In this document: positions 1 to 12,229 of the stretch, piece by piece
Layout: every line of letters begins with the position of its first letter
How positions within the stretch are numbered: the first letter of the stretch is position 1
Assembly (NCBI GenBank): GCA_016795155.1
Contig: JAEUIE010000048.1
Span: forward strand, 1-32,901
From: Planctomycetia bacterium
GTDB lineage: Bacteria; Planctomycetota; Planctomycetia; Gemmatales; HRBIN36
DNA: 32,901 nucleotides
Reading direction: 5' to 3'
Notes under the pieces: generated by a model
What the model was told of the DNA's origin: nothing
Seen by the model: the letters and a program-made list of their open reading frames with translations, nothing else
Databases searched by the model: none
Program-made: the position numbers and the translations under genes

Positions 1-1
1 C

Positions 2-334
2 GTGATGGCGATCCTGAGCCGTGAAGGTCAGACTTATGCCAGGATGCAATTCTCGGCAGGTCCCGGTGGCCATTGTCGCTTGCGCTGGCGAGTTGACTGG
101 GAGTCCTGGCCACGTGAGCTTACTAACAACGTGCTGACCGAATTCCGAGATGCCTGGCAACAGGAGTATCGACAAAATGTTTTACCGCAAACCTTACACC
201 ATTTTGGAATTCATCCAACCCACACTCAACCAGAACTTCTCAATCCAACTCCCCAGATATCGGATCTGGATACCTGGGATGAATCGTTCTGGACTTCCTT
301 AGGAGATACGCTTAATGAACACATCATTCCCTGA
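2..334 (+). CDS. Unidentified protein, possibly 5'-truncated, upstream of ThiF-like gene
   Basis: An open frame runs from the window edge to TGA at 332-334. GTG at 2 and ATG at 5 could be internal, so the true start may lie outside. The 110 visible residues are rich in Trp, Gln and His, with no signal peptide or membrane segment; I do not recognise a family. The stop overlaps the start of the ThiF-like gene (315) by 20 bases in another frame, which suggests translational coupling and a shared operon. In PRTRC-type cassettes, E1-like genes sit with E2-like and JAB-like partners. This could be the C-terminus of such a partner, but nothing in the visible sequence proves it. Confidence 0.6.
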   Translation: MMAILSREGQTYARMQFSAGPGGHCRLRWRVDWESWPRELTNNVLTEFRDAWQQEYRQNVLPQTLHHFGIHPTHTQPELLNPTPQISDLDTWDESFWTSLGDTLNEHIIP

Positions 335-995
335 TCGGGATATTCGGCAACGCGGCTTGGTTCCTGCTGACAAGTTATCCAGACTCCATTTACTGGTGAT
401 CGGCGTCGGGGCGATTGGTCGACAAGTTGCACTGCAACTTGCGACTCTTGGCGTGCAAAGAATGACCCTGGTGGATCACGATCATGTTGCTGAGGAGAAC
501 CTGGCTGTCCAGGGGTACAGGCCAGATGATCTGGGACATACCAAGGTCCAGGCCACAAGCACGCTTTGTCTGCAAATCCTACCGTCACTTCAAATGACGA
601 TGCTAACTGAACGATTTCGACGCCAACCCGGTTGGTCTGCGGATTCCGACAGGATCCCAGTAATTATGGTGTGTGTAGACAGCATCACGACAAGGAGAAT
701 CATTTGGGAAACATTAAAAGGACGTTTCGCACTTCTTGTCGACGGACGCATGCAGGCAGAGGTCATGCGTGTTCTGGCACAGGATGAACGGACGAATCCG
801 CAGCATTATCAGAACTCGCTTTTTAGCGAATCTGAAGCTCAGAGCGGCCCCTGCACTGCTCGCTCGACTATCTACACCGCTTCAATCGCCGCTGGCTTGA
901 TGATCGCCCAGTTGGTTCGATGGCTTCGGCAAGTACCCTTGATCCCCGATCAAACTCTTAACCTGTTGAGTGGTGAACTGATCATTAACGAGTAG
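315..995 (+). CDS. ThiF/HesA/MoeB-family E1-like adenylyltransferase
   Basis: The 226-residue product has the E1-like Rossmann ATP-binding fold near its N-terminus: VIGVGAIG (residues about 29-36), a following Arg-containing helix, the acidic LVDHDHV strand end, then EENLAVQGY and a conserved Lys in LGHTKVQA. A later PCTARSTIYTASIAAGL segment matches the C-terminal helix region of ThiF proteins and carries a Cys. Family knowledge: these enzymes adenylate the C-terminus of a ubiquitin-like or sulfur-carrier protein. It lacks the long C-terminal domains of MoeB or UBA-type enzymes and resembles the short ThiF members of mobile PRTRC-type cassettes. The start overlaps the preceding gene by 20 bases. 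A strong terminator at 1025-1052 ends the unit. The substrate is unknown. Confidence 0.85.
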   Translation: MNTSFPDRDIRQRGLVPADKLSRLHLLVIGVGAIGRQVALQLATLGVQRMTLVDHDHVAEENLAVQGYRPDDLGHTKVQATSTLCLQILPSLQMTMLTERFRRQPGWSADSDRIPVIMVCVDSITTRRIIWETLKGRFALLVDGRMQAEVMRVLAQDERTNPQHYQNSLFSESEAQSGPCTARSTIYTASIAAGLMIAQLVRWLRQVPLIPDQTLNLLSGELIINE

Positions 996-1024
996 TTCGT
1001 TACTACCCAGCGTAACACCCCATC

Positions 1025-1052
1025 CCTGCCTGGAATACCAGGCAGGTTTTTT
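1025..1052 (+). terminator. Intrinsic terminator after ThiF-like gene
   Basis: A perfect 9-bp stem, CCTGCCTGG / CCAGGCAGG, closes a four-base AATA loop and is followed directly by six T. It lies 29 bases after the ThiF-like stop codon and just ahead of the ribosome binding site of the next gene, so it separates the two transcription units. Confidence 0.9.
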
Positions 1053-1070
1053 CATTTCTGGAGGAGAAAC

Positions 1071-1790
1071 GTGTTAACACGTGGCAATCGTAAATTAGGA
1101 CTGAAACACATCTGGGGATTTACCCTCCCCTCGGGTACGGATGCAGTCTGCCCGGGTCGCACCTCCATCTGCGCCCGATCTTGTTACGCTTTGCGCCTGG
1201 AAAAGTTGCGTCCCAAAGTTCACAAGGCCTATCAACGTAACCTGGTGATGACCAAACGCCGAGATTTTGCTCAGCGAATGTATTACTTTGTCCGGGCCAT
1301 GCGGATAAGGACTGTACGCATCCATATCGGCGGAGATTTCTTTTCGGAGGAGTACGCCCGAAAGTGGCTCCAAGTTATTGAGAAGTCACCTCGAACCCAT
1401 TTCTACTTCTACACCCGATCCTGGCGTATTTCACCAATTTGCGTCGTATTGGAAGAAATGGCTTCTCTGCCCAATTGTTCAGCTTGGTACTCCTGTGACA
1501 GCGAGACGGGGTTGCCAGCCAATGTGCCGCCACGGGTTCGACTCGCCTGGCTGCAGCTAGATCCTCTCGAGCAGATCAATTCCCCAGTGCATCTGATCTT
1601 TCGAGATTATCCACTGCGCAAGCATCCAGTTACACATTCTTCAGATGCGCATATTTGCCCAGAACAAGATGGACTGAGGCGGAAGCAACGAATCACAAGT
1701 GAATCATGCCAGTTCTGTTTCATGCCTAGAGTAAGTAGCCATTCCAAGCGAGTACCATTAGGCATGCTGAATGATTCGGGTAAATTGTAA
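1071..1790 (+). CDS. Phage gp88-like cysteine-rich protein
   Basis: The GTG start is chosen because GGAGGAG (1060-1066) lies four to five bases upstream. The 239-residue protein has an N-terminal cysteine cluster, C27-x6-C34-x3-C38 within VCPGRTSICARSCYA, a middle VRIHIGGDFFSEEYARKW segment followed by an FYFYTRSW motif, and a C-terminal pair CQFC with an earlier HIC. This pattern matches, from memory, the mycobacteriophage 'gene product 88' family, found in phages and mobile elements, whose biochemical role is not established. The cysteines suggest a metal or iron-sulfur site, but the spacing is not the canonical radical-SAM CxxxCxxC. It stands alone between a terminator and a palindrome at 1799. 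Confidence 0.75.
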   Translation: MLTRGNRKLGLKHIWGFTLPSGTDAVCPGRTSICARSCYALRLEKLRPKVHKAYQRNLVMTKRRDFAQRMYYFVRAMRIRTVRIHIGGDFFSEEYARKWLQVIEKSPRTHFYFYTRSWRISPICVVLEEMASLPNCSAWYSCDSETGLPANVPPRVRLAWLQLDPLEQINSPVHLIFRDYPLRKHPVTHSSDAHICPEQDGLRRKQRITSESCQFCFMPRVSSHSKRVPLGMLNDSGKL

Positions 1791-1798
1791 TTCTTGTC

Positions 1799-1812
1799 CG
1801 GCGGCGCCGCCG
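1799..1812. repeat. GC palindrome copy 1
   Basis: A perfect 14-base palindrome, CGGCGGCGCCGCCG, lies 8 bases after the gp88-like stop. The same core with longer symmetrical flanks recurs at 4905-4924 and 7182-7199. Its function is unknown. Confidence 0.85.
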
Positions 1813-1947
1813 AAAACTTCACGCGATCTGCCTGTATCGACTGTCGGTACCTGATTACATCTTCATTCAAAACACAAATGAATTCTGGCTGCGATGTAAC
1901 CATTGCACCGCTGTTTCATTTATCTCGTTACCATTTAGGAGAACACG

Positions 1948-2121
1948 ATGCCCGCGAGGCAAAAGTTAAATGCTGTATCACTCTACCTCTGCCTGATTGT
2001 GGGTGCGATTGCAGCCCTGGTTTCTGGGTCTGGATCCGTATTCTGGATAGTTTCCGGGATACTGGTCATGATTGCCCTGCATTCTGGGGCGTTTCGCCCT
2101 ACAAGTGGGAAAAGGCAGTAA
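1948..2121 (+). CDS. Small two-helix membrane protein, 57 residues
   Basis: ATG at 1948 is preceded by TAGGAGA (1936-1942) at proper spacing, and the frame closes with TAA at 2119-2121. The product starts MPARQKLNAVSLY and contains two hydrophobic stretches, roughly residues 9-29 and 32-47, separated by a short Gly/Ser turn, with a basic C-terminus (RPTSGKRQ). That fits a small inner-membrane hairpin protein. No family is recognised. A stem-loop follows 7 bases after the stop. The good ribosome binding site, hydrophobic pattern and trailing hairpin support it as a real gene despite its size; its role in the element is unknown. Confidence 0.65.
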   Translation: MPARQKLNAVSLYLCLIVGAIAALVSGSGSVFWIVSGILVMIALHSGAFRPTSGKRQ

Positions 2122-2128
2122 CCCCACC

Positions 2129-2157
2129 AGCCACCTCGTACCTATTGCGAGGTGGCT
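2129..2157 (+). terminator. Stem-loop after small membrane protein gene
   Basis: AGCCACCTCG and CGAGGTGGCT form a perfect 10-bp stem with a 9-base loop, starting 7 bases after the stop at 2121. No T run follows directly (a run of seven T begins about 26 bases later), so it is a probable but not textbook terminator. Confidence 0.6.
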
Positions 2158-2218
2158 TGAACTTTGGCCTAATCAAGACTCTATTTTTTTAGCCATTCTC
2201 CGACAGCTTCAACCATTC

Positions 2219-3133
2219 TTAGTTTTGCAAGGTTGAATCTGCAAATACGCGGTTAAATGGCTTCCCATGTCGAGTAGTTTTTACTCGTGATCGAGCGAGC
2301 TTTGATCGCATAGAGTTCGTTATCTTTTGCGCTAGCTGGTTCTTTCGTTCCAGCATTACTTGGATGGTTACCAGAGATTTGAGACCTCGCTCGTATCGAA
2401 CCTGGGCGGAGTCATATTGTTTTTCGAGATGGCGGATTAAAGAAAAGTTTGTTTTCTGTTTTACTGATGCTTCGGTGTATAACATTTCAGCTAGATAAAC
2501 TTGTAGCCAGAGAATGGAAAGCCTCTCGGCATGTGCCACTTCCAAAGCACTTCCTCCCCCTTTCCACTCGTTTTTCAGTTTTTTTAGTTTCCGTTTCAGC
2601 GATACCTTCTGTTTGACATTATCACCCAAGTAGGCTGTTAGAAGATGGTCGATCGATTTCTGAAACATGTCTCCATGGAGATCCCAGAGATCAGCTTCCT
2701 TCTCCATCATTTGCTCAAGCTCATCTTCACTAACACTTGCATTCTGCGTTGTGCTGGCCTCCTGTTCTTTAGTTTTCGGATGTTCGTTAGTTGGATTCGG
2801 TGATGGAGTCGCGTTCATAGCTTCCTTCCCTGGACGTTTGAGTCGCCAACTACTCCCATGCAGATGGAAACCTGCATTGTTCAGAGTCAACATAGTAAGC
2901 GTTGACAGGCACTTGTCCCATAACATGGAAGTTAATTCAAGATGTTCGTGATACTGCTGCAGTTTCTTCATTTCATACCTCGAACGAACTCTCTCCTGCC
3001 TATTCACTTTTACTTCTAGTTCAGCCAACGCCGCAAGATAACCATTACCATAATATTCACGCACCACACGGCCATGAACACGTCGGCTGCGTGTGTAATA
3101 CTCTCTCCCACCCTTGCGCTTTTCCCACGCCAT
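2219..3133 (-). CDS. Planctomycete-type hypothetical protein (MAWEKRKGG family)
   Basis: I place the start at the ATG at 3133 (MAWEKRKGGREYYTRSRR); an upstream in-frame GTG at 3148 is less likely. The N-terminus, with its basic 'KRKGGRYYTRSRRVxGRVVREY' pattern, is one I associate with a recurring planctomycete accessory protein of unknown function. A low-complexity linker (about residues 105-135, rich in Pro, Thr, Glu and Gln) follows, then a long highly charged alpha-helical and probably coiled-coil region, and a basic tail. There is no signal peptide or membrane segment. The basic N-terminus could bind nucleic acid, but this is inference. The AT-rich gap 3134-3451 separates it from the divergent DUF1580-like gene. 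Confidence 0.75.
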   Translation of the reverse strand: MAWEKRKGGREYYTRSRRVHGRVVREYYGNGYLAALAELEVKVNRQERVRSRYEMKKLQQYHEHLELTSMLWDKCLSTLTMLTLNNAGFHLHGSSWRLKRPGKEAMNATPSPNPTNEHPKTKEQEASTTQNASVSEDELEQMMEKEADLWDLHGDMFQKSIDHLLTAYLGDNVKQKVSLKRKLKKLKNEWKGGGSALEVAHAERLSILWLQVYLAEMLYTEASVKQKTNFSLIRHLEKQYDSAQVRYERGLKSLVTIQVMLERKNQLAQKITNSMRSKLARSRVKTTRHGKPFNRVFADSTLQN

Positions 3134-3451
3134 GTTTTGGCTACCCACTTGTGTTACATTTTTTCAGAAATACCGCTTACTATATCTAACAGTTCTACTG
3201 TTCTGATCAATCGTATTTCCAGGCATTTCCGCAACAATTTTCGATATTATACACCACTCGAATCATCATTTATTCATAATTGAATCGTATGTAAACTGTC
3301 TTATTCTGTCTCATTCATAGCTATTCTGTCTGGATCTAAATTCTTATTCATCAGCAACCTGTCTTGTTGGTAGTTATAATCAGATGTATATTCATACGTG
3401 ATATGGCGGGGACATACTTTGCCAATCATTTCTCGGATGGGGGGAAGACAA
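3134..3451. promoter_or_regulatory. AT-rich divergent intergenic region
   Basis: This 318-base AT-rich gap lies between divergent genes and should hold both promoters. ATTCTGTCT occurs as a direct repeat at 3303 and 3323, a possible regulator site. A TATAAT occurs at 3375-3380, without a convincing -35 at standard spacing. No gene is visible. Confidence 0.35.
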
Positions 3452-3775
3452 ATGATTGACATCGATAAAGAAAAATTGATTCCTATTCGTAAATCAGGTA
3501 AATTGTTTCCTGGCAATCCTCATGCATCAACCGTTTATCGGTGGATCAAAGCGGGAATGAACGGGTGCTTTCTGGAGACCAGCATGGTTGGGGGGAGGAG
3601 ATTCACTTCCCAGGAAGCCGTTAAGCGCTTCATAGTAAAACTGACCCAGAAAGCCGATGGCCGTTATAATCGTGAATTCGAGTTTTCAAAGGAAGAACTG
3701 GAGCAAATGGGTTCACCACGGGATGACAATCTTTGGTCTGGCAACTTTGGCGAAATCGAATTACCTATTGAATAA
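3452..3775 (+). CDS. DUF1580-like small DNA-binding protein
   Basis: The ATG at 3452 is chosen because a run of G followed by AAG (3439-3446) provides a strong ribosome binding site about six bases upstream. The 107-residue product contains LIPIRKSGKLFPGNPHASTV, then YRWIKAGMNG, GGRRFTSQEA and a basic stretch, the order of a winged-helix excisionase-like fold: helix-turn-helix ('pick a row, pick a wing') and then a wing. This matches my memory of DUF1580, a family common in planctomycete mobile elements. The acidic C-terminal tail (EFSKEELEQMG onward) is less conserved. It may act as an excisionase or a regulator of the element; that is inference. Its 3' end overlaps the convergent gene at 3765. 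Confidence 0.75.
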   Translation: MIDIDKEKLIPIRKSGKLFPGNPHASTVYRWIKAGMNGCFLETSMVGGRRFTSQEAVKRFIVKLTQKADGRYNREFEFSKEELEQMGSPRDDNLWSGNFGEIELPIE

Positions 3776-4112
3776 TCAAGCGATCTATCAAGGAAGGGGC
3801 AATTCTTGGCACCGACGAAATGTGATACCAGGTTTGCCCCCTTCGGCGAAAACCATATCGGGAGGCTCTTTGCTCAAGAAATGTTAAGGCAAATTGTTGT
3901 AACGCCTCATCAGTTTGGAGTATTTTATCGGTGAGTGCCTGTAATTCCTGTAGATTATGAGTTATTTCAGCTTCCTTCTCCTTGATCCGCTTCCTTAGAT
4001 ATTTCTTCTGCTGACTGATAAATTTTTCCTCCTCACGGCTACTCATTTCATCTAACTGCTGACTAAAGCATAATTCTTTTTCTTGTTCCTTATCCCGATT
4101 CTTCCTAGGCAT
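3765..4112 (-). CDS. Small charged coiled-coil protein, unknown
   Basis: The start is placed at the ATG at 4112 (MPRKNRDKEQEKE) because GGAGGA lies about seven bases before it; the in-frame ATG at 4124 overlaps that site. The 115-residue product is dominated by Lys/Glu/Gln helices (KKYLRKRIKEKEAEITHNLQ, continuing to about residue 70) typical of a coiled coil, followed by a basic C-terminus (RYGFRRRGQTWYHI). The C-terminal part resembles small planctomycete proteins encoded beside DUF1580-like genes, but I cannot name a family. It converges on the DUF1580-like gene with an 11-base overlap at their ends. Confidence 0.6.
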   Translation of the reverse strand: MPRKNRDKEQEKELCFSQQLDEMSSREEEKFISQQKKYLRKRIKEKEAEITHNLQELQALTDKILQTDEALQQFALTFLEQRASRYGFRRRGQTWYHISSVPRIAPSLIDRLIIQ

Positions 4113-4222
4113 GACATCCTCCATATATGCGTTTCTTGTTCATCATTACACTACACATGTGTACCACAATCGATTTGTGTATCCAATACCAACAAGTCAG
4201 ACACGTTACTGAACTATTTCAG

Positions 4223-4257
4223 CCGAAGTGGCACAGATGTAAGTGAGAGGAGTCGGT
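4223..4257 (+). repeat. Imperfect direct repeat, copy A
   Basis: The segment around AGTGGCACAGATGTAAGTGA resembles copy B at 4953-4990 (AGTGGCACAGGTGGTAAGTT) over about 36 bases, including a shared GAGTCGG near the end. The copies precede the IS5 remnant and the IS3 orfA respectively, so this may be a shared IS leader or terminus. Confidence 0.5.
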
Positions 4258-4291
4258 AACAGGCAGCCAGCAAAAGAAGAACGAGTGATGC

Positions 4292-4813
4292 AAGAAGAAT
4301 GTCTGGCAGTTCATCCAAGAAGTGGTTCAGGATCCCTTACACGATTGATACTTGACAGCACTATCGTGCAGGCCCACAGCACGGTGCGGGTATGAACGGT
4401 AGAGAAGATGACCAGGTGTTGGGACGATCCCATTGTGGATTTGGGATAAAATTCCACTCATCCTCATATGGATTGAGTCAGCTATGACGAATGTCTCCGT
4501 CCCGGGCAGGACATCAATCTTACCGTGGAATTGATGAGTGTCCCTCCGTTGAAAGAAGGCATCGCGACAAAGGATACGGCAGCAACGGGCTAGTGGAAAT
4601 GTTCGAATTATGTGGCGCATGCGATCATCCGCCACGATTCAACCACTAAACACCAGGGACTAGGACCAGCATTGCTACTAATGGAGACGGAACATCGTAA
4701 ACAATGTGTCTATCACTGAAACAATGCTGACATGTGGCGATCCGATAAGAGAAGACAACTCGACCTTTCACTGCATGGTGCTCTACGCCGCGATCACCTA
4801 TTGGCACAAGTGA
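4292..4813 (+). pseudogene. Decayed IS5-family transposase
   Basis: Reading the plus strand across frames recovers the IS5-type DDE transposase in the correct order. First comes NVWQFIQEVVQDPLHD (from about 4298), then DSTIVQAHST (4354 on, matching the DSTIVRAH first-Asp motif), LGRS..GFGIKFH (about 4417), a degenerate PGQ-like segment, DKGYGSNGLVEMFE (about 4570), PPRFNH (matching 'IPPRSNR'), and a C-terminal TFHCMVLYAAITYWHK ending at TGA 4813. Many stops and frameshifts interrupt it, so it is an old, inactive remnant. In its time it would have catalysed cut-and-paste transposition. A reverse-strand open frame here is a shadow. Confidence 0.75.
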
Positions 4814-4904
4814 TTCCCAGATTGCCTACCTCAGTGGCATGAATCAATAAGGTCTAACTAACCATTCCGAGTGTGCCATAGTGGTTGAGAAGCCTGATGT
4901 TGAA

Positions 4905-4924
4905 TTCCGGCGGCGCCGCCGGAA
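4905..4924. repeat. GC palindrome copy 2, longest form
   Basis: TTCCGGCGGCGCCGCCGGAA is a perfect 20-base palindrome. It lies between the IS5 remnant and the IS3 element and shares its 14-base core with 1799-1812 and 7184-7197. Confidence 0.9.
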
Positions 4925-4952
4925 CTGAGTTAGTGATTCTGTAATGTTTTAC

Positions 4953-4990
4953 CCGCAGTGGCACAGGTGGTAAGTTAGAGGGAGTCGGGT
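4953..4990 (+). repeat. Imperfect direct repeat, copy B
   Basis: This is the counterpart of copy A at 4223-4257, with AGTGGCACAG, TAAGT and GAGTCGG in common. It lies about 30 bases upstream of the IS3 orfA start and could be part of the left terminus or leader of the element. Confidence 0.5.
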
Positions 4991-5020
4991 CTGGTTGCCA
5001 TTGAAGAATCATGAGACTCC

Positions 5021-5311
5021 ATGAGTGAGCGTAAAGAGCGTCGGCATTGGTTGCCGTCGGAGAAGTTGCGGATTGTGCTGGCGGGATTGGATCGAGGGAC
5101 GAATCTGTCGGAGCTGTGCCGTCAGGAAGGGATTAACATCACCCAGTATTACCAATGGAAGAAGCAGTTGCAGTCGTCGGCGCAGGAGATCTTCTCCCGG
5201 CAGACGACCAGTAAAGAAGAGCAGCTGTCGGCGGAGGTGCAGCGGTTGCGTAATGTGATCGCGGAGATCACGACGGAAAATTTGGAGATAAAAAAGGGGC
5301 GCTGGGTTTAG
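5021..5311 (+). CDS. IS3-family transposase OrfA
   Basis: The 96-residue product has the usual OrfA layout. An N-terminal helix-turn-helix (WLPSEKLRIVLAGLDRGTNL, then SELCRQEGINITQYYQWKKQ, residues about 10-50) recognises the IS ends. It is followed by a leucine-zipper-like helix, LSAEVQRLRNVIAEITTENLEI, used for multimerisation. In intact IS3 elements a -1 frameshift fuses OrfA to OrfB; here the frame ends at KKGRWV just as the orfB remnant begins, close to the A-rich stretch at 5289-5294 where slippage would occur. OrfA is intact but cannot transpose without an active OrfB. Confidence 0.88.
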   Translation: MSERKERRHWLPSEKLRIVLAGLDRGTNLSELCRQEGINITQYYQWKKQLQSSAQEIFSRQTTSKEEQLSAEVQRLRNVIAEITTENLEIKKGRWV

Positions 5312-5690
5312 AGGACTACGGCCAGTTGCCGGTGGAGCTTCAGGAGCGAGTGCATCAGGAGGTGCTCAAGACAAAGGCACGAAGCAGCTGGCCGGTGAAG
5401 AAGACGTTGCTGGCGTTGGGGATACCGTGATGAGCGAGGGGAATTGCAGGCCAGGCCGGAGATTCGGTCGGACAATGGAAGCGGGTATCTATCGAAAGAG
5501 TTCCGCCAGGTGCTGGAGGAGAATCGGCTGAGCCATGTGAAGATCAAGGCGAGCTGCCCGGAGGAGAATGGCTTGATGGAGCGGAGCAACCGTATAGTGT
5601 GAGAAGCCTGGGAGCAGGAGATACCTCCGGAGGATGTGGAGTCGGCGTTGGACTACTACCGAGGCAACCCGGAAGCCTTGAATGAGGAGA
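5298..5690 (+). pseudogene. IS3-family transposase OrfB remnant, internally deleted
   Basis: The first part reads VHQEVLKTKARSSWPVKKTL and LALGIP (to about 5428), the N-terminal helical region of OrfB. It jumps directly to RPEIRSDNGSGYLSKEF (from about 5455), then HVKIKASCPEENGLMERSNR, and an EDVESALDYYRGNPEALNEE-type C-terminus to about 5690. The second catalytic Asp (SDNG) and the Glu of the NGLMER motif are present. The first catalytic Asp and roughly 120-150 residues are missing, and stops occur at 5428-5430 and after RSNRIV. The remnant is inactive. Confidence 0.75.
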
Positions 5691-6095
5691 GTCGTGTGAG
5701 GAGAACTCGCGTGCGAAGGTGATTTCCTCGGTAGCTATGGTGCTCACAACAAACTGCGGATAATCGTGCTTTTCCGAGATCTCTTTGCAAGCTCGCCGAC
5801 CATGCTTCAAGAACTTCGAGGCTCAAGCTCGATGAGTTGGTTCCAGATTTCCCTGACATCAGTTTGGAAATCATCAATCCTATCAGTTGAGATTTTATCT
5901 CAATTTTGAGATTTACTCGCCTGGTCGCGTAAATCTTAGTTTTGAATCGAGAGTATCATCTTCCTCGAAGGAAGAGCAAGACCCTCGGGATGTGGTTGGT
6001 TTGTTTTATTTGACAGGATCTATGACCTCGATGGATCTTTTCCCTCGGGGGGTGATTTGGATCAATTTGGCGCGATTTTTTATCAATCAAAATAT
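5691..6095. other. No convincing gene; AT-rich part near Rep-like gene
   Basis: Between the IS3 remnant and the hairpin at 6096 I see no supported gene. A minus-strand segment (about 5870 to 5700) reads as broken protein-like pieces in changing frames, for example KEISEKHDYPQFVVSTIATE, and could be a decayed gene; I cannot name it. From 5885 TGAGATTT occurs twice (5885, 5905) around a small CTCAATTTTGAG palindrome. Together with the stem-loops at 6096 and 6184 this may be part of an origin for the Rep-like protein, which is inference only. Confidence 0.3.
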
Positions 6096-6120
6096 CACGC
6101 CCCGCGCTTCGCGGGGCGTG
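6096..6120 (+). terminator. Perfect 10-bp GC hairpin with T tract
   Basis: CACGCCCCGC and GCGGGGCGTG pair perfectly around a five-base GCTTC loop and are followed by AATTTTTT. It has the form of a strong intrinsic terminator, yet no gene clearly ends just upstream. It lies about 190 bases before the Rep-like gene, so it may instead be an origin hairpin or insulate that gene from upstream transcription. Confidence 0.65.
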
Positions 6121-6183
6121 AATTTTTTGGTGGTATTAAATAAGACATTAAGACTTAAAGAACTAAAAAGAACTAACCCCTGA

Positions 6184-6206
6184 AGTATTGACCGTAGGTC
6201 AATACT
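6184..6206. repeat. Perfect inverted repeat upstream of Rep-like gene
   Basis: AGTATTGACC, a GTA spacer and GGTCAATACT form a perfect 10-bp inverted repeat with a 3-base loop, 107 bases before the Rep-like start. It could be an operator, or the stem of a nicking site for a rolling-circle initiator. No T tract follows, so it is not a typical terminator. Confidence 0.75.
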
Positions 6207-6312
6207 GGTATGTTGCGCCGTAGAAGACAGCCTCTCTAATAACTAAATTAAGTCTTTGTAAATAAACAACTTACGCGACATCTAACACTTCACCGTTGAA
6301 ACTGGAGATTTC

Positions 6313-7449
6313 ATGACTTATAGGACTCTCTACCATCCACGAAGACCGTACGTATGGTTCTCCATCGGTTCGTCCTGGAGACCGTGTTTGAGACAAAAAA
6401 TCAATCCCAAGGTCGACTATGTCGGGAAGCCGTACGACGACAAATCAGCAACGCTCGGGCTGTCCGAGGCGTTCCGAAAAATCGAAAACCGCAGCTTTAC
6501 TATGTACTCTAAAATTAATGCCTACGCTCAAAAGATAAAAAGCGTGTTATCAGAACATGTTCTGAGAAAGGTATCCCGTCTGCATCATTGCCCGCCCAAT
6601 GGTGGTTACCGATCTTACTCGGATATGGGTCGCCATCCGTGCGGATCTGCGTTGCTGTGTCCTTACTGCTGGGTTCGAAGAGTATCCTGGCCGTTGATGC
6701 GAGGGATCATGACTGGAATTGCCAACTATTCAAAAATTACCAGGATTGCCAAGCACTATAAGGCAGGCCGTATTGTTCGGTTCGGTGTCGTGGTGAAAGT
6801 TGCCACCTGCCACGCACGGCCGGCTGATGTTCTCAAATACATGTCATCAGTGCTGGGGCGTATGGTGAAGTTCTTGAAGAGATTGAAGGGTCACCAACGT
6901 CCGCCCGGGATACGCGGTGCAGTCATGACTTCCACATTGCGATACGGTAATGATGGATTCTGGCACATCAGGTTTCGAGGTGTCGGCATCCAGGACTTCG
7001 AAGGTAATAAATACACTCCCTATAACGTCAACAGCGCGCTGCTGCTGTCTGCGAGGCATACCTGCGGGAAAGTGATTCCAAGGCCCGTCGACAAATTCTG
7101 CCATCAGGTTGATGTGGAAAGAAAGACAGTCAATCGCACTTTCCTGAAAGCGGTGGCGTGGGCTGCCAGGTTTCAGGACATTTCGGCGGCGCCGCCGAAC
7201 GTCCTGCTCTCCATACTTCGACGCAAGACGAAGTATCGTCTGACCAGACGATTTGGAGTCTGTCATCGAAGATTCAATAAGATCAACCCTAATCTCAAGG
7301 CCCTCAAACAGGCCTTCGAGATGGAAGCAGAGTACAGGAAATTCGTGGAGAATCTGACTCATGAACAGAGCGTTTGTAGTGCTGAGGCAGGGGCACCGGC
7401 CGATTGTGCTACAGGAGAAGAGCAAGGCTCAAGAGAAGAGCAAGGCTAA
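6313..7449 (+). CDS. Rolling-circle Rep-like protein, HUH motif degenerate
   Basis: ATG 6313 has GGAGA a few bases upstream. In this 378-residue protein, C110-x5-C116-x2-C119 followed by Arg-Arg (CGSALLCPYCWVRR) is the zinc-like motif preceding the nuclease domain in plasmid and phage rolling-circle initiators ('CPxCxxRR'). A beta strand IVRFGVVVKVA (about 154-164), a helix, and RGAVMTSTLRYGNDGFWHIR then fit the order of motifs I and II. However, the HUH site reads H218-I-R220 and not H-x-H. FLKAVAWAARFQ (about 277-288) sits where the catalytic Tyr helix is expected but lacks a Tyr. It may be a diverged or inactivated initiator, or a relative with another role. The C-terminus carries an 18-base tandem repeat. 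The GC palindrome at 7182 lies inside the coding sequence (Ala-Ala-Pro-Pro). Confidence 0.55.
   Translation: MTYRTLYHPRRPYVWFSIGSSWRPCLRQKINPKVDYVGKPYDDKSATLGLSEAFRKIENRSFTMYSKINAYAQKIKSVLSEHVLRKVSRLHHCPPNGGYRSYSDMGRHPCGSALLCPYCWVRRVSWPLMRGIMTGIANYSKITRIAKHYKAGRIVRFGVVVKVATCHARPADVLKYMSSVLGRMVKFLKRLKGHQRPPGIRGAVMTSTLRYGNDGFWHIRFRGVGIQDFEGNKYTPYNVNSALLLSARHTCGKVIPRPVDKFCHQVDVERKTVNRTFLKAVAWAARFQDISAAPPNVLLSILRRKTKYRLTRRFGVCHRRFNKINPNLKALKQAFEMEAEYRKFVENLTHEQSVCSAEAGAPADCATGEEQGSREEQG
7182..7199. repeat. GC palindrome copy 3, inside the Rep-like gene
   Basis: TTCGGCGGCGCCGCCGAA is a perfect 18-base palindrome within the Rep-like coding sequence, where it encodes an Ala-Ala-Pro-Pro stretch. It shares the 14-base core with 1799-1812 and 4908-4921. 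Confidence 0.9.
7415..7447 (+). repeat. 18-base-period tandem duplication at the end of the Rep-like gene
   Basis: GAGAAGAGCAAGGCT occurs at 7415-7429 and again at 7433-7447, a period of 18 bases. It gives the repeated EEQGSREEQG at the C-terminus, directly before the stop at 7447-7449. Confidence 0.85.
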
Positions 7450-7524
7450 GGAAGTGTAAAAAGACGAACTTCATACAACCCGTGCATTTGTCGCAAACTT
7501 CTAGACTTAAACTTCCGGTATTTC

Positions 7525-9108
7525 TCAGGCTGATCCTACAAAATATTTGCCATAAAGATAATCAGTTACAGCTTTAGGTACTATTGTCTGCCTGACATAA
7601 TGCTTTCTAGCAATTTCATTTGGAGTGTGCCCCAACCAAAGTTGTGCGGTTGATAAATCAAACTTCTCTGTTATCAGAGTTGCACCAGTCTTTCTGAAAT
7701 GACGAGGGCTCAATGAGATGTTGCTTCCATTGATCGTCCGACGCCAATATTGGTAAACGAGATCTTTGTTGACAATTTGATCCCCACGCATGCATTTCTC
7801 ATAGAGTTTAGCGCCAGTTTCACTCAGCAAAAGATGCAAATTGTCATTACATGCGGCTTCTTTTAGGCAGTCTAAGGTTTGCGGCCATAGATGATGGGTA
7901 ACAGTAAAGCCTTTGCCAGCCTTTTTCATTTTCGATCGACGTCTGGTGATGGTGCCTTTTTGGAAATCTACTTGGTTCTTCTCGATATCCGAAACATCTG
8001 CCTGTGTCATTCCACAATTCAGCATGAGCAGGAAGCAAGCCTTGTAGATTGGGTGTTTTACCTGTAACAGTATTTTGGAAATCTCAGCTGGCTCGAAGAC
8101 CTTTGGATCGCCACAACTAGTATCGAATCTAAACTCTTTGCTTTTCATTTTCCTGGGCAAATGGTCTATGTGCTCGTTGTTGTATGCCCAATGCAAAAGA
8201 GCGAGTCCAAACTGGAATACCTTCTTGGCATAGATTCCTGACCATCCTTCCTTTTTTGATTTTAACCTCTCCACCTCCTTCGACTTGCAGAAGTCATACC
8301 ATTGCTTGACTTTGGACTGAGGGAAATGTTCAAGGTTAGTCTCTTCACCAAAGACTTCTTTGAATAGCTGCATCGTGCGACTGAGATTATTGAAATCAGT
8401 AGTTGATTGGCCAAGTTTGAGGCAGTTTGATTTCTTTTCTTTGAGAAATTGATCCGCTAGATAACCGAGAGACTTGGATCGTGGCGTGACTTCAATGAGT
8501 TTTTCGAGGGTTTTCATGTCAACCGAATAGCCGAGCCTTTCTTTACCGTGTTTGTCCGTGAATGCCCTGTCTAGGTTCTGCTGTAAGATACCTCGGATGC
8601 ACTCTTTAATGCCCACAGTTTCAGCTTCCGGGAGGCGTCCCCTATGAGCAATGAGTTCAATCGTTTTCAGATAGGACATCATTACTGCAGGAAGGGAGTT
8701 ATCCCACGAACTATTCCCGCGACTAAGTCTGTATTCTTCATAACAATCATCAACCAACTTTGGTGAAACAATAGGTTTGGCTGGTCTGTTCTTCAACTTA
8801 TTAATGTGATCTTGAGCACGCATTGCCTCATCTATCAAGCCGGCGGAGTGAAGCAGTGCTAATTCGCGACGAGTAGCATTGACGGAATCTGCGTGCGGAA
8901 GCTGGTCCTCTTTAACTTGAGCCAAGCGCATTTTTATATCTTGGAAATGTTTATTTGCCAAAGGATAGGAATCAGATTGAGTCCATAAGGTGTTATCCTT
9001 CAATCCAAGATCTGAGCACTTTACACGATATCGTGTCCCTTCAATCATCTTGGTCCATCGATAGTGTGGAGCACCTTCCCAGGAGCCTGCTTTTCTGTAT
9101 CGTTTCAT
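7525..9108 (-). CDS. Tyrosine recombinase (integrase) of planctomycete type
   Basis: The 527-residue protein, larger than most integrases, has a long N-terminal DNA-binding part and a C-terminal catalytic domain. There I find RRRSKMKKAG (beta-hairpin Lys region), SPRHFRKTGAT aligning with box II (Arg472; the usual first His appears as Arg469), WLGH (His494), and HYV with the likely nucleophile Tyr504. The box I segment reads LNCGMTQADVSDIEKN, with Thr-Gln where the first catalytic Arg normally lies, a variant I recall from other planctomycete integrases ('NCGxxQxDIADL'). It starts about 150 bases from the tRNA fragment at 9260 and reads away from it, as expected for an integrase beside its attachment site. 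It should catalyse integration and excision of the element. Confidence 0.85.
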   Translation of the reverse strand: MKRYRKAGSWEGAPHYRWTKMIEGTRYRVKCSDLGLKDNTLWTQSDSYPLANKHFQDIKMRLAQVKEDQLPHADSVNATRRELALLHSAGLIDEAMRAQDHINKLKNRPAKPIVSPKLVDDCYEEYRLSRGNSSWDNSLPAVMMSYLKTIELIAHRGRLPEAETVGIKECIRGILQQNLDRAFTDKHGKERLGYSVDMKTLEKLIEVTPRSKSLGYLADQFLKEKKSNCLKLGQSTTDFNNLSRTMQLFKEVFGEETNLEHFPQSKVKQWYDFCKSKEVERLKSKKEGWSGIYAKKVFQFGLALLHWAYNNEHIDHLPRKMKSKEFRFDTSCGDPKVFEPAEISKILLQVKHPIYKACFLLMLNCGMTQADVSDIEKNQVDFQKGTITRRRSKMKKAGKGFTVTHHLWPQTLDCLKEAACNDNLHLLLSETGAKLYEKCMRGDQIVNKDLVYQYWRRTINGSNISLSPRHFRKTGATLITEKFDLSTAQLWLGHTPNEIARKHYVRQTIVPKAVTDYLYGKYFVGSA

Positions 9109-9169
9109 GAGTGTTCCATGCTCTCGACAGGAGGGTGAGTTAGTGATGCCAATGCGACTTGGAAAAAAT

Positions 9170-9218
9170 GGGGTAAATCATGTGGGGTAAAATGCTGTTA
9201 TAGGTATCAATTTACCCC
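9170..9218. promoter_or_regulatory. GGGGTAAA repeats between integrase and attachment site
   Basis: GGGGTAAAT (9170-9178), GGGGTAAAA (9184-9192) and the inverted ATTTACCCC (9210-9218) lie in the 150 bases between the integrase start and the tRNA fragment. Two direct copies plus one inverted copy so close to the crossover site suggest recombinase arm sites, excisionase sites, or an operator controlling the integrase gene. Confidence 0.55.
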
Positions 9219-9259
9219 AAAGACATGCAAAAATCCGCTTAAAATTTACACTTTTGCGA

Positions 9260-9301
9260 TTCCTAAACCGTAGGTCACAGGTTCAAATCCTGTCGGGAGT
9301 A
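9260..9301 (+). other. Attachment site: displaced 3' half of tRNA-Arg(CCT)
   Basis: The sequence folds as the 3' half of a tRNA: anticodon loop TTCCTAA (9260-9266, anticodon CCT), 3' anticodon stem ACCGT (9267-9271), variable loop AGGTC, T stem and loop ACAGG-TTCAAAT-CCTGT (9277-9293), acceptor 3' strand CGGGAGT (9294-9300) and discriminator A. CCA is not encoded. The bases before 9260 do not pair with the anticodon stem and no 5' half exists upstream. The tRNA sequence therefore stops exactly at the anticodon loop, a known crossover point for tyrosine recombinases. I read this as the attachment junction on the integrase side. Confidence 0.82.
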
Positions 9302-9314
9302 ATTGAGAAAATCC

Positions 9315-11369
9315 ATGATTCGAACAGTTTGTTGCCTGCTGTTATGCTGTCCGCTGCTCCAGGCTCAAACCGTCAAGACCAGTGATTATCGAGCAGGCTG
9401 GGTCACGCTGCCCAAGCCCCCTGCACTGGTTTATCATTCGCATGTTGGCAGCAATCCGCAACCTCCAGCAGTGTACGAATGGGCCTATTCCCTGGTGGAT
9501 GACACAGGCAGAATCAGCCCGATGTCGCCTTCCGTCAAAATCAACGCACCACGCAATTACACCATCAGCGTCAAACTGCAGGATGGCATGTTCACACGGG
9601 CCTGCGCCTACGTCCTGTGGTCGCGGCGGGTAGGTGGCAGTTCACCACTGGGGCCAGCAGGAAATGGCGAACTCGAATGGCGGTCCAACGGCGCCAATAA
9701 AGCTCAACAACCTCGACCGTTTCTTGCCTTGACGGGGTTACCCGATCATAGCTTGCGTGCTCGAGCCATCCAGCCAACCATCCGCTGGTATGCGGGCAAT
9801 TTCAGCGAGCGATTCGAAGATGAAACGTTTTTCCCACGATCAACCGTCTTGGCAGCGCCGGACCATCCACCTCTGATCACCGTTTACCACATCCCCAACA
9901 GGGCATACGAAGTCTGCTACACCTGGGTAGGCAATGAGGGAGAGTCTCCTCTTTCGGATGTGATTACGGTTCTCCCCAATTCAGAAAGCGAGGATTTCAA
10001 CAACCCTTTCTGGCTTCAACGACCTGGTTGCCCGCCACAAGGAGCACTCGGATTTTACCTTTACCTCAGAGTAAAAGGAGAATCCAACTGGCATCGGCAG
10101 CCCAGAAGACACGTTGACAAGTATTCCACTCGTGATGATTTTCTCTGGGGACTCACCCAGATCAAAGTGTCAGTTGATCGCTTTGTTGAGAGTAAGCAGT
10201 CACCTGCCACCCGACAGGGACGCTCCTGGCTTACCAGTCTGCAGCAGGCCATCGAGCAAACCAATCAAAGCATCCTGGTGGATTCTCCTCAGGAGCTGCG
10301 TTGCCCGGTGATCATGCCATTTCGGGCCGGCCAGTCGATGCGACGCACCATCTCAGCCTTGAATGGTGCATCCTGGGATCTGACTACGGTCAAGCCCTCA
10401 CCGGGCACTGCCCTGCCCTATCCCACCGAATGGCCGATGTGGGTTGAGACATCGCAATACACCCGGCTGGTAGGATGCAACATGGAATCCTCCACGGCGG
10501 AATGCGGCATTGATTTCCTGAGTTACGATGGCTCCACCTGCTTTCACTTCCGTGCTGAGCGATGCTCGATCAAACTGTGGCGATCATTGATAGGCAGAAA
10601 GTATAGTGCAGCCATCAGGCAACTGGCCCATTTTGAAGGGGCACATACCTGCAGCGAACCAATCTTCATCGATTGCGACGTCTGGGCCAGGCATGGTGTG
10701 GTGTGTGAAGGAGGCCAGTCAGCCAACTGGGAAGTGAGGTCAATGAACGCAGTCTCCGCTGGCGGACTGGAATCGTCCATCCTGAGCATTAACAATTCCG
10801 GTTCATTTTTAGTCAGTGGCCGCATTACGACCGATGGTGCACGAGCGTTTATTGCTGCGGTAAACATTCGGCAGGTTACGGTAGAAAACTGGTATTCTGA
10901 TCGAGGTTTTCCATGCTGGGTTTGCTTCAGCACTCCCAATACTGCAACCACTCTTAATATCACTGTAAACCAGATTAACCACTGGCCTTCCAGTGATGGC
11001 GCGCAGGGCGATTGGGATTGGTTGCATGTTGCGGAAATGGCCCAAGCCGGCGAACACATTGCCAAGCTGAGAATCACAGGACTGGCTGCCAACCATTACC
11101 GAGCAGATAGCCGTGGACAACCCTTCGAAGGTGGCGCTCCCCGGTGCCGGATTTTCTGTCCTCGTTATGCAGGACTTGATTACCGCCTGCCCAATAATTC
11201 ACTGCTCAGCCAACTCAAGGTGCACGAAGAATCACGTCAGTGGTGGAACACGCATGGCACCGAGTTTCAATATCCCATCGTGGGCATGGTCTGGCACAGT
11301 TACCAGAGCCAGTGGGATCACGGGAAGGATGCAGCCCAACGCAGACCCGAAATCAAAACGCGCGACTAA
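9315..11369 (+). CDS. Large secreted protein, probably beta-helix type
   Basis: I prefer ATG 9315 (MIRTVCCLLLCCPLLQAQ, a clear signal peptide ending at Ala-Gln) over the in-frame TTG at 9303, which sits against the tRNA end. The mature protein of about 665 residues has an N-terminal half with fibronectin-like features (AVYEWAYSLVDDTGRISPMS; YEVCYTWVGNEGESPLSD) and a C-terminal half of short beta-strand repeats with Asn, Gly and Cys (PIFIDCDVWARHGVVCEGGQ), suggesting a right-handed beta-helix. No catalytic motif is evident. It begins only 13 bases after the attachment site, so integration has probably cut it off from its original upstream sequence. It converges on the bestrophin-like gene with a 4-base overlap. 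Confidence 0.75.
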   Translation: MIRTVCCLLLCCPLLQAQTVKTSDYRAGWVTLPKPPALVYHSHVGSNPQPPAVYEWAYSLVDDTGRISPMSPSVKINAPRNYTISVKLQDGMFTRACAYVLWSRRVGGSSPLGPAGNGELEWRSNGANKAQQPRPFLALTGLPDHSLRARAIQPTIRWYAGNFSERFEDETFFPRSTVLAAPDHPPLITVYHIPNRAYEVCYTWVGNEGESPLSDVITVLPNSESEDFNNPFWLQRPGCPPQGALGFYLYLRVKGESNWHRQPRRHVDKYSTRDDFLWGLTQIKVSVDRFVESKQSPATRQGRSWLTSLQQAIEQTNQSILVDSPQELRCPVIMPFRAGQSMRRTISALNGASWDLTTVKPSPGTALPYPTEWPMWVETSQYTRLVGCNMESSTAECGIDFLSYDGSTCFHFRAERCSIKLWRSLIGRKYSAAIRQLAHFEGAHTCSEPIFIDCDVWARHGVVCEGGQSANWEVRSMNAVSAGGLESSILSINNSGSFLVSGRITTDGARAFIAAVNIRQVTVENWYSDRGFPCWVCFSTPNTATTLNITVNQINHWPSSDGAQGDWDWLHVAEMAQAGEHIAKLRITGLAANHYRADSRGQPFEGGAPRCRIFCPRYAGLDYRLPNNSLLSQLKVHEESRQWWNTHGTEFQYPIVGMVWHSYQSQWDHGKDAAQRRPEIKTRD

Positions 11370-12229
11370 TTATTCGGAGTCCTGTACGAACTGCATATCT
11401 GAATAACGTTGTCCCGGATCGTATGGGCATAACGCTCCAGATCGAGATCGTCCTCATCATGACCAAATGGATCTTCAATGTGACTGTCGATCATTTCTAT
11501 TCCCATCAGGAAGAAGCATACCAGCAGTAACACCGGTATGCCTTTCCAGCCGAGATAGGAAATGGTGTACCAGGGAGCAATCAGCAGGTGCAGGAACAAC
11601 CCTGTCCGCAACATGGCCTTGTATGAGAACGGAATGGGTGTGTTATCAATGCGTTCGCATGCTCCACAGACATCCAGCAGTCCGTTCAGATGCAAATCCA
11701 TGTTTCTGAACATGAACTCATTGATTTTGCCTTCCCGTAACCACAGCGCAGCCTGCTGATGCAAGTGCTTGGCGATATATGCCGGGATATGAGCAGGCAT
11801 CGCGGTCTCTCCTTCGAGCCCTGGAAAATCCTGAAGTCGATAAGTGTCTTTTCTCAAGTGTTTTTTCAGACTGAAAGGAAATGCCGTTAACAGTTCTACT
11901 GCTCTGGTATTTTTCAGTTCATCAGGTGGAAGGTAAGCAAACCATTTGGCAGCAAGGTTGCGGCTATCGTTGACCAGTTGCCCCCAGAGTCGTCGGCCTT
12001 CCCACCAGCGGTCATAAGCCGTTCTGTTCCGAAAGCCCATCAGCAGGCTGAGAATAATGGTATTGATCAGCGATGCTTCTGTGCCAAGTTCATTGATGTG
12101 GAAACCCGTTAAGTCGAGCACCAGCCAGGTAATCAGGCAATAAACCAGCACAATGCTTAGCCACATTCCCAGTTGAGATGCAATGGAGAGAATGAAATGC
12201 AACTTGAGCCATGTGATCAGGTATTTCAT
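11366..12229 (-). CDS. Bestrophin-family anion channel
   Basis: The start codon ATG 12229 has TGAGGT a few bases upstream. The 287-residue product has hydrophobic segments near the N-terminus (LSIVLVYCLITWLVLDLTGF), a middle GFRNRTAYDRWWEGRRLWGQ signature and a C-terminal hydrophobic pair (LRTGLFLHLLIAPWYTISYL; IPVLLLVCFFLMGIEMI) followed by an acidic SHIEDPFGHDEDDLDLE tail. This is the pattern of bacterial bestrophin/UPF0187 membrane proteins, pentameric anion channels in the cytoplasmic membrane. The physiological role in bacteria is largely unknown. It is transcribed alone, converging on the preceding secreted protein gene. Confidence 0.85.
   Translation of the reverse strand: MKYLITWLKLHFILSIASQLGMWLSIVLVYCLITWLVLDLTGFHINELGTEASLINTIILSLLMGFRNRTAYDRWWEGRRLWGQLVNDSRNLAAKWFAYLPPDELKNTRAVELLTAFPFSLKKHLRKDTYRLQDFPGLEGETAMPAHIPAYIAKHLHQQAALWLREGKINEFMFRNMDLHLNGLLDVCGACERIDNTPIPFSYKAMLRTGLFLHLLIAPWYTISYLGWKGIPVLLLVCFFLMGIEMIDSHIEDPFGHDEDDLDLERYAHTIRDNVIQICSSYRTPNN

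Follow-up and report, generated by a model that had tools for sequence, protein, structure and literature searches.

The locus studied here raises the question of what a protein may do that carries a cysteine motif of rolling-circle replication initiators (Reps) but reads H-I-R where the H-x-H of the HUH nucleases is expected. The gene lies in a stretch of 32,901 nucleotides from a Planctomycetia bacterium, which as a whole is called the window below. From its letters alone the gene had been predicted either to belong to an integrative element that once replicated by rolling circle and is decaying, or to represent a new family with changed chemistry. The open reading frame (ORF) encodes 378 amino acids; its frame is intact and a GGAG ribosome-binding site is seen in the sequence. 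The CPxC-RR motif was found as CPYCWVRR (residues 116-123), and H218-I219-R220 was confirmed within WHIRFR (residues 217-222). The Tyr reported missing from its expected helix is indeed absent, and Phe stands at the corresponding column. The features of the protein are as follows:

6313-7449, plus strand: Rep-like protein of 378 amino acids, a divergent member of an HUH-less family by family-profile scores
6589-6678, plus strand: putative zinc-binding motif C93-P-P ... C110-x5-C116-P-x-C119-x2-R122, from family alignments
6961-6978, plus strand: W217-H-I-R-F-R222, the strand that bears WHPHxH in Reps, from profile alignments
7171-7173, plus strand: F287, in the column that holds the catalytic Tyr in Reps, from an alignment of 40 members

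The motif Cys residues, P117 and R122 are invariant across the family alignments, and the window protein lacks none of the four Cys. Alignment to real Reps places Arg at both HUH His positions (R220 and R222).

At ordinary thresholds the window protein has no family match of note in Pfam, PHROGs, NCBIfam or the PDB, and no helicase domain (SF3 fusion) was found in its 378 residues with Pfam. Direct searches gave no match among viral contigs, plasmids, phages and genome contigs, and nothing beyond the protein itself in the genomes of 61 relatives. The sole extra match in 392 genomes of the phylum (L002) was spurious, lying antisense to a 603-aa ORF. The family was exposed by a low-threshold sweep (E <= 1) of 397 genomes of the same class. 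Twenty of the resulting stretches were inspected. Full-length members were present in four of them and a truncated one in a fifth; most other rows of the sweep were rejected as noise. These first members are long ORFs that share NCPP...C....CP[FWY]C[WYF]xR and, in their C-terminal part, the block [RSP]YP...L...FGxxR. When five members were combined in a profile, it matched 22 of the 397 class genomes at E <= 0.01. This count includes weak rows and the query genomes, and some of the weak rows may be spurious, such as a 21-aa frame in G712. With a DNA pattern derived from the motif, members were found on 19 of 23 and then on 9 of 11 viral contigs. The pattern also hit 23 stretches of genome contigs, of which 5 proved to be members, all from planctomycetes (Planctomycetota, Gemmataceae, Gimesia, Kuenenia and Phycisphaerales). 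Members and non-members are clearly split (E < 1e-30 versus > 0.08), and two looser pattern scans (48 and 21 stretches) gave no new members. To the family thus found, genomes of the class contribute about 20 members and IMG/VR viral contigs 28, some of the latter identical in sequence. Three other family members had no match in annotated phages, and L054 had none in plasmids. Pfam gave nothing above threshold for 15 other members, the best being Rep_1 at E 0.19. The neighbours of integrase homologues in relatives, tried as another route to the family, included no convincing Rep-like gene.

Does the window protein belong to this family? Four rows of the family alignment used with hhalign had originally been found through the window, and therefore a profile of viral members only is the cleaner test of membership. 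Such a profile, built from 19 viral members with the window left out, scored the window ORF at E 1.1e-9 among 3533 ORFs, with 26.6 bits coming from the half with the Cys motif and about 10-11 from the rest. In hhalign the single window sequence matched the family with P 96.9 and E 1.9e-10 over 189 columns. By these profile scores the window protein does belong to this unnamed family, although as a divergent member.

The alignment of homologues that had been proposed for H-x-H and Tyr gave a clear picture. Among 40 distinct members, about half of them on viral contigs, none has H-x-H at the HUH columns. The first-His column holds 17 residue types and no consensus. The second has Arg more often than any other residue (22 of 40), and a subgroup is out of register there by one residue. 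The family has also not retained the Lys that ends the Y-x-x-K motif of Reps. At the Tyr column 33 members have Tyr, four Leu and two Phe (the window and L086), and one is misaligned. The loss of the His pair is common to all members and is therefore probably old and family-wide, with no local decay; the window copy is unusual solely by its additional loss of Tyr. The new-family alternative is thereby upheld as far as the family and the missing H-x-H are concerned. As for changed chemistry, the family might still cleave or join DNA, with Tyr retained and Arg or other residues replacing the HUH metal site, in which case the window copy would be a dead branch. The Tyr column and the frequent Arg at the second-His column point this way, and the retention of Tyr in so many members would be odd if enzymatic function were fully lost. 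Yet the His pair itself is gone, with no consensus left at its first column, six members have Leu or Phe in place of Tyr, the Lys is not kept, and the Tyr may be structural, as part of an R/S-Y-P motif. We regard altered chemistry as unlikely, and a loss of nicking as the more likely outcome.

The kinship to rolling-circle Reps, which had been suggested from the Cys motif, was borne out by profile-profile alignments of both the family and the window protein. The Reps compared come from planctomycete genomes (L226-L232) and from small plasmids, where they are mostly annotated 'protein rep'. Against 13 of them the family aligned in hhalign with P 97.2, E 3e-11 and a score of 84.7 over 174 columns, whereas 57 column-shuffled family profiles scored at most 17.8. 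The family portion after the Cys motif alone gave P 92.4 and E 5e-7. With a shallower profile of six Reps the values were P 81 and E 1.2e-5 (C-terminal part alone, P 3.4), and therefore the depth of the Rep profile matters. As a control, 30 alignments of neighbouring genes reached no more than 21.7 with the family and, among the 12 matches listed, no more than 24.8 with the six-Rep profile. In the alignment the W-xxxx-R strand of the family falls on WHPHxH, and the catalytic Tyr is matched by the family's R/S-Y-P. The window protein alone matched the Reps with P 58.7 and E 9.5e-5, with WHIRFR beneath the HUH strand. Based on these alignments, the family descends from, or has a common ancestor with, Rep_1-type HUH initiators of small plasmids. 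It resembles these initiators (PF01446; 'protein rep' of 2-3 kb plasmids, pPP81, pAYL) in having the Cys motif followed by the same predicted order of strands and helices. It differs from them in the missing H-x-H, in Y-P instead of Y-x-x-K, in the Phe of the window copy, and in that it has no match above any Pfam threshold.

The predicted structure was examined next to the profiles. A single-sequence model of the window protein reached a pLDDT of only 36.7, and the fold evidence thus comes from a relative, L117, whose model from 29 sequences has a pLDDT of 87.0 and a pTM of 0.85. After the Cys motif this model predicts beta-alpha-beta-beta-alpha-beta, the Rep-type order of elements. Foldseek against the PDB gave nothing at E <= 0.001, the best match being the DNA-binding domain of papillomavirus E1 (0.06). 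With VIA-align, 12 of the 50 PDB matches listed are HUH Reps or a Helitron. The best is SIRV1 ORF119, which we take to be a Rep as in this count (Z 5.0, rmsd 4.1, 101 residues aligned), followed by the wheat dwarf virus Rep (Z 4.3, rmsd 3.0, 85 aligned), a Helitron (Z 4.0, rmsd 3.5, 138 aligned) and Reps of a nanovirus, a circovirus and a vientovirus (Z 3.1-3.6). In a viral structure library 11 rows reached E <= 0.001, and the five named rows among the 50 matches listed are all replication proteins. Matches of the L117 model include Microvirus mar14 (E 1.1e-3), mar42 (1.2e-3) and Inovirus Gp2 (5.6e-3). A fold unrelated to HUH nucleases, which would have spoken against the original prediction, is not what the model of L117 suggests. 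Taken alone this evidence from structure is weak, but it is consistent with the profiles.

In VIA-align nearly the same scores are reached by ferredoxin-like proteins that are unrelated (CCA-adding enzyme, eEF1B, CutA). These matches, the low Z scores and an operator-like palindrome upstream of the window gene would fit a ferredoxin-like transcription regulator of phages or elements, whose resemblance to Reps is limited to a common fold and the Cys motif. The profile-profile match at E 3e-11, which is still 5e-7 once the Cys motif is taken away, and the collinear motifs, with W-xxxx-R on WHPHxH and Tyr on the catalytic Tyr, argue against such a regulator, and we find it very improbable.

Another question is whether the DNA in front of the gene bears any trace of an origin. 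As described, it is AT-rich (35.1% GC at 6122-6312, 49.8% in the window), and it contains two perfect inverted repeats:

6095-6121, no strand: perfect inverted repeat 1, with a 12-bp stem and the 3-nt loop CTT; also terminator-like
6184-6206, no strand: perfect inverted repeat 2, AGTATTGACC-GTA-GGTCAATACT, with a 10-bp stem, from repeat analysis

Both had been described as 10-bp repeats. The second is exactly so, and the first turned out to be longer; together with a T-run it can also be read as an intrinsic terminator, whichever strand is taken. When the 414 bp upstream were dinucleotide-shuffled 2000 times, no shuffle had two perfect stems of at least 10 bp. Across the whole window 8 such stems were counted, where shuffles average 0.2, so that real DNA is richer in perfect stems than shuffled DNA. 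Other genes of the same stretches serve as a matched control: perfect stems of at least 10 bp lie upstream of 8 of 26 members, the other 18 having no such hairpin, and of 6 of 135 other genes (p 2.6e-4). Only members with an upstream gap of at least 100 nt were counted, and the thresholds were set after a first look. With the window excluded the counts are 7 of 25 and 5 of 123 (p 7.8e-4). Because of this family-wide enrichment, the hairpins of the window are more than coincidence. Besides the window, the loci L148 and L218 have two such stems each, with related arms. Homologues that never have H-x-H, together with inverted repeats that are not conserved, had been named as evidence against the prediction; the former is what we found, and the latter is not, as the repeats recur.

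In three Gimesia-type loci (L205, L206 and L218) a 10-mer specific to each locus occurs seven times within 450 nt upstream of the family gene, and in shuffles at most three times. The 10-bp unit of these iterons differs by locus and the surrounding architecture is conserved, a concerted change. Iterons were rejected as a general feature of the family (4 of 36 versus 26 of 269 controls), and no such array lies upstream of the window gene.

The window gene sits on a real tRNA-integrated element, in agreement with the integrative element that had been proposed. The element and its parts are:

1-9301, no strand: portion of the element in this contig, its left part missing, deduced from the two att ends
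3398-3775, plus strand: DUF1580 protein (PF07618, E 1.8e-15) with weak HTH/excisionase similarity (phrog_66, E 0.064)
5021-5311, plus strand: IS3-type remnant, OrfA with the rest degenerate (PF01527, E 4.4e-12; NCBIfam IS3 below cut-off)
7525-9108, minus strand: tyrosine integrase of the element (PF00589, E 1.6e-10; PHROG phrog_1, E 1.8e-20)
9170-9177, 9184-9191 and, inverted, 9211-9218, no strand: three arm-type repeats GGGGTAAA, from repeat analysis
9260-9301, plus strand: att core, the 42-bp 3' end of tRNA-Arg(CCT), by identity to the intact tRNA on contig C13

The intact tRNA-Arg(CCT) lies on another contig (G000:C13:577-650, which is L248 577-650), and an exact 24-mer of this tRNA occurs at two places of the genome only, in the window and at C13:579-602. 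The other att end has GGGGTAAA twice and GGGGTAAT twice. The duplicated tRNA 3' end and the arm repeats thus adjoin the integrase, as in known tRNA-integrated elements with a tyrosine integrase, which have the integrase beside att and arm repeats at both ends; here, in difference to these, the contigs end inside the element and only parts are seen. We infer that C48:1-9301, in the window contig, is the right part of the element and C13:1-576 its left end, C13 and C48 not being joined, and that host DNA would begin at 9302. The DUF1580 protein probably belongs to the element. Adjacent ThiF-like and GP88 genes at the left contig end (315-1790) are apparently element genes as well. A 12-bp direct repeat is found at 4926 and 9136 of the window, and two more DUF1580 genes lie within about 2 kb at G000:C53:213658-215756, perhaps in another element.

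With the element in hand, the first alternative of the original prediction can be weighed, namely that the window copy is left over from a once active rolling-circle replicon and is decaying. It is true that the window member is very divergent and without Tyr and that the IS3 remnant lies 1 kb upstream. Yet the gene retains its frame, its ribosome-binding site and the four motif Cys, neither the integrase frame nor either att end is disrupted, and the HUH loss is shared by all 40 members. This picture of decay is thereby not supported, and we consider it improbable.

The neighbours of the family members are of help in suggesting a function. In 33 clustered stretches (28 viral and 5 genome) an HldE-like kinase/nucleotidyltransferase and an SbcD-like phosphoesterase occur in 13 each, an SbcC-like ATPase in 10 and a helicase in 4. 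Among 76 neighbour proteins of nine viral stretches there are also a terminase large subunit, a DnaB-like helicase, a dCTP deaminase and Ant. The viral contigs that bear members reach 235 kb and look like those of tailed phages. Of the 21 distinct chromosomal member loci, 8 have an integrase-like ORF within the stretch examined, the window being one of them; the window integrase and those of 4 of 5 other loci checked passed Pfam, L205 failed, and L210 and L217 were outside this check.

A mechanism that fits these data, and that we favour with moderate confidence, is a family derived from Reps that has lost the HUH pair and probably binds DNA without nicking it, for replication or its control. 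The family keeps the N-terminal four-Cys motif and a predicted Rep-type core without the His pair, and in the window copy without Tyr too. The protein would bind in a sequence- or hairpin-specific manner near its own promoter, and once bound it may take part in replicating planctomycete phages and integrative elements or regulate their replication. The homology, the motif loss, the replication-recombination neighbours and the upstream repeats are together best explained by a Rep-type protein in which nicking was probably lost while DNA recognition remained. A more specific scenario, which we put forward tentatively as possible rather than probable, is that a plasmid Rep was acquired by dsDNA phages and integrative elements of planctomycetes, was stripped of its nuclease and now acts at origins by binding hairpins or iterons, beside an SbcCD-like hairpin nuclease and a helicase.

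The Rep-derived binding protein can be compared with several known systems. Microvirus and inovirus replication initiators are nicking enzymes of small ssDNA phages; they match the family model in structure, and in contrast to them the family is found on contigs of up to 235 kb. Polyoma- and papillomavirus proteins are described as having an HUH domain without catalytic motifs that binds DNA (PMC6668415). The origin-binding domains of papillomavirus E1 and polyomavirus T-antigen are thus similar to our family in being Rep-type domains minus the catalytic motifs. Unlike them, the family has no fused SF3 helicase, helicases being separate genes on the viral contigs; it also keeps the Cys motif and mostly the Tyr, and its hosts are bacterial. 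An inactivated HUH example from bacteria or phages was not among the literature matches listed, in which subscription journals are mostly uncovered, and we claim no priority; in the literature searched no paper on planctomycete phages was found. Loss of the Rep-type nuclease is known in eukaryotic dsDNA viruses, and this diverse family, if our reading is true, would be a similar sort of case in bacterial phages and elements. The transition from a nicking initiator to a binding protein would then be open to study in laboratory bacteria. As a candidate marker, the family may also help to recognise planctomycete phages.

Some further genes were noted in passing. The locus L203 has a reverse transcriptase ORF at 9671-11479 (PF00078, E 1.6e-38), and related ORFs are present in the member stretches L209, L210, L217 and L219/L127. 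An Mrr-like restriction endonuclease is common to L209, L210 and L220. In the window itself, 17618-20479 encodes a 953-aa protein with Gly/Asp-rich repeats of the GGxGxD type.
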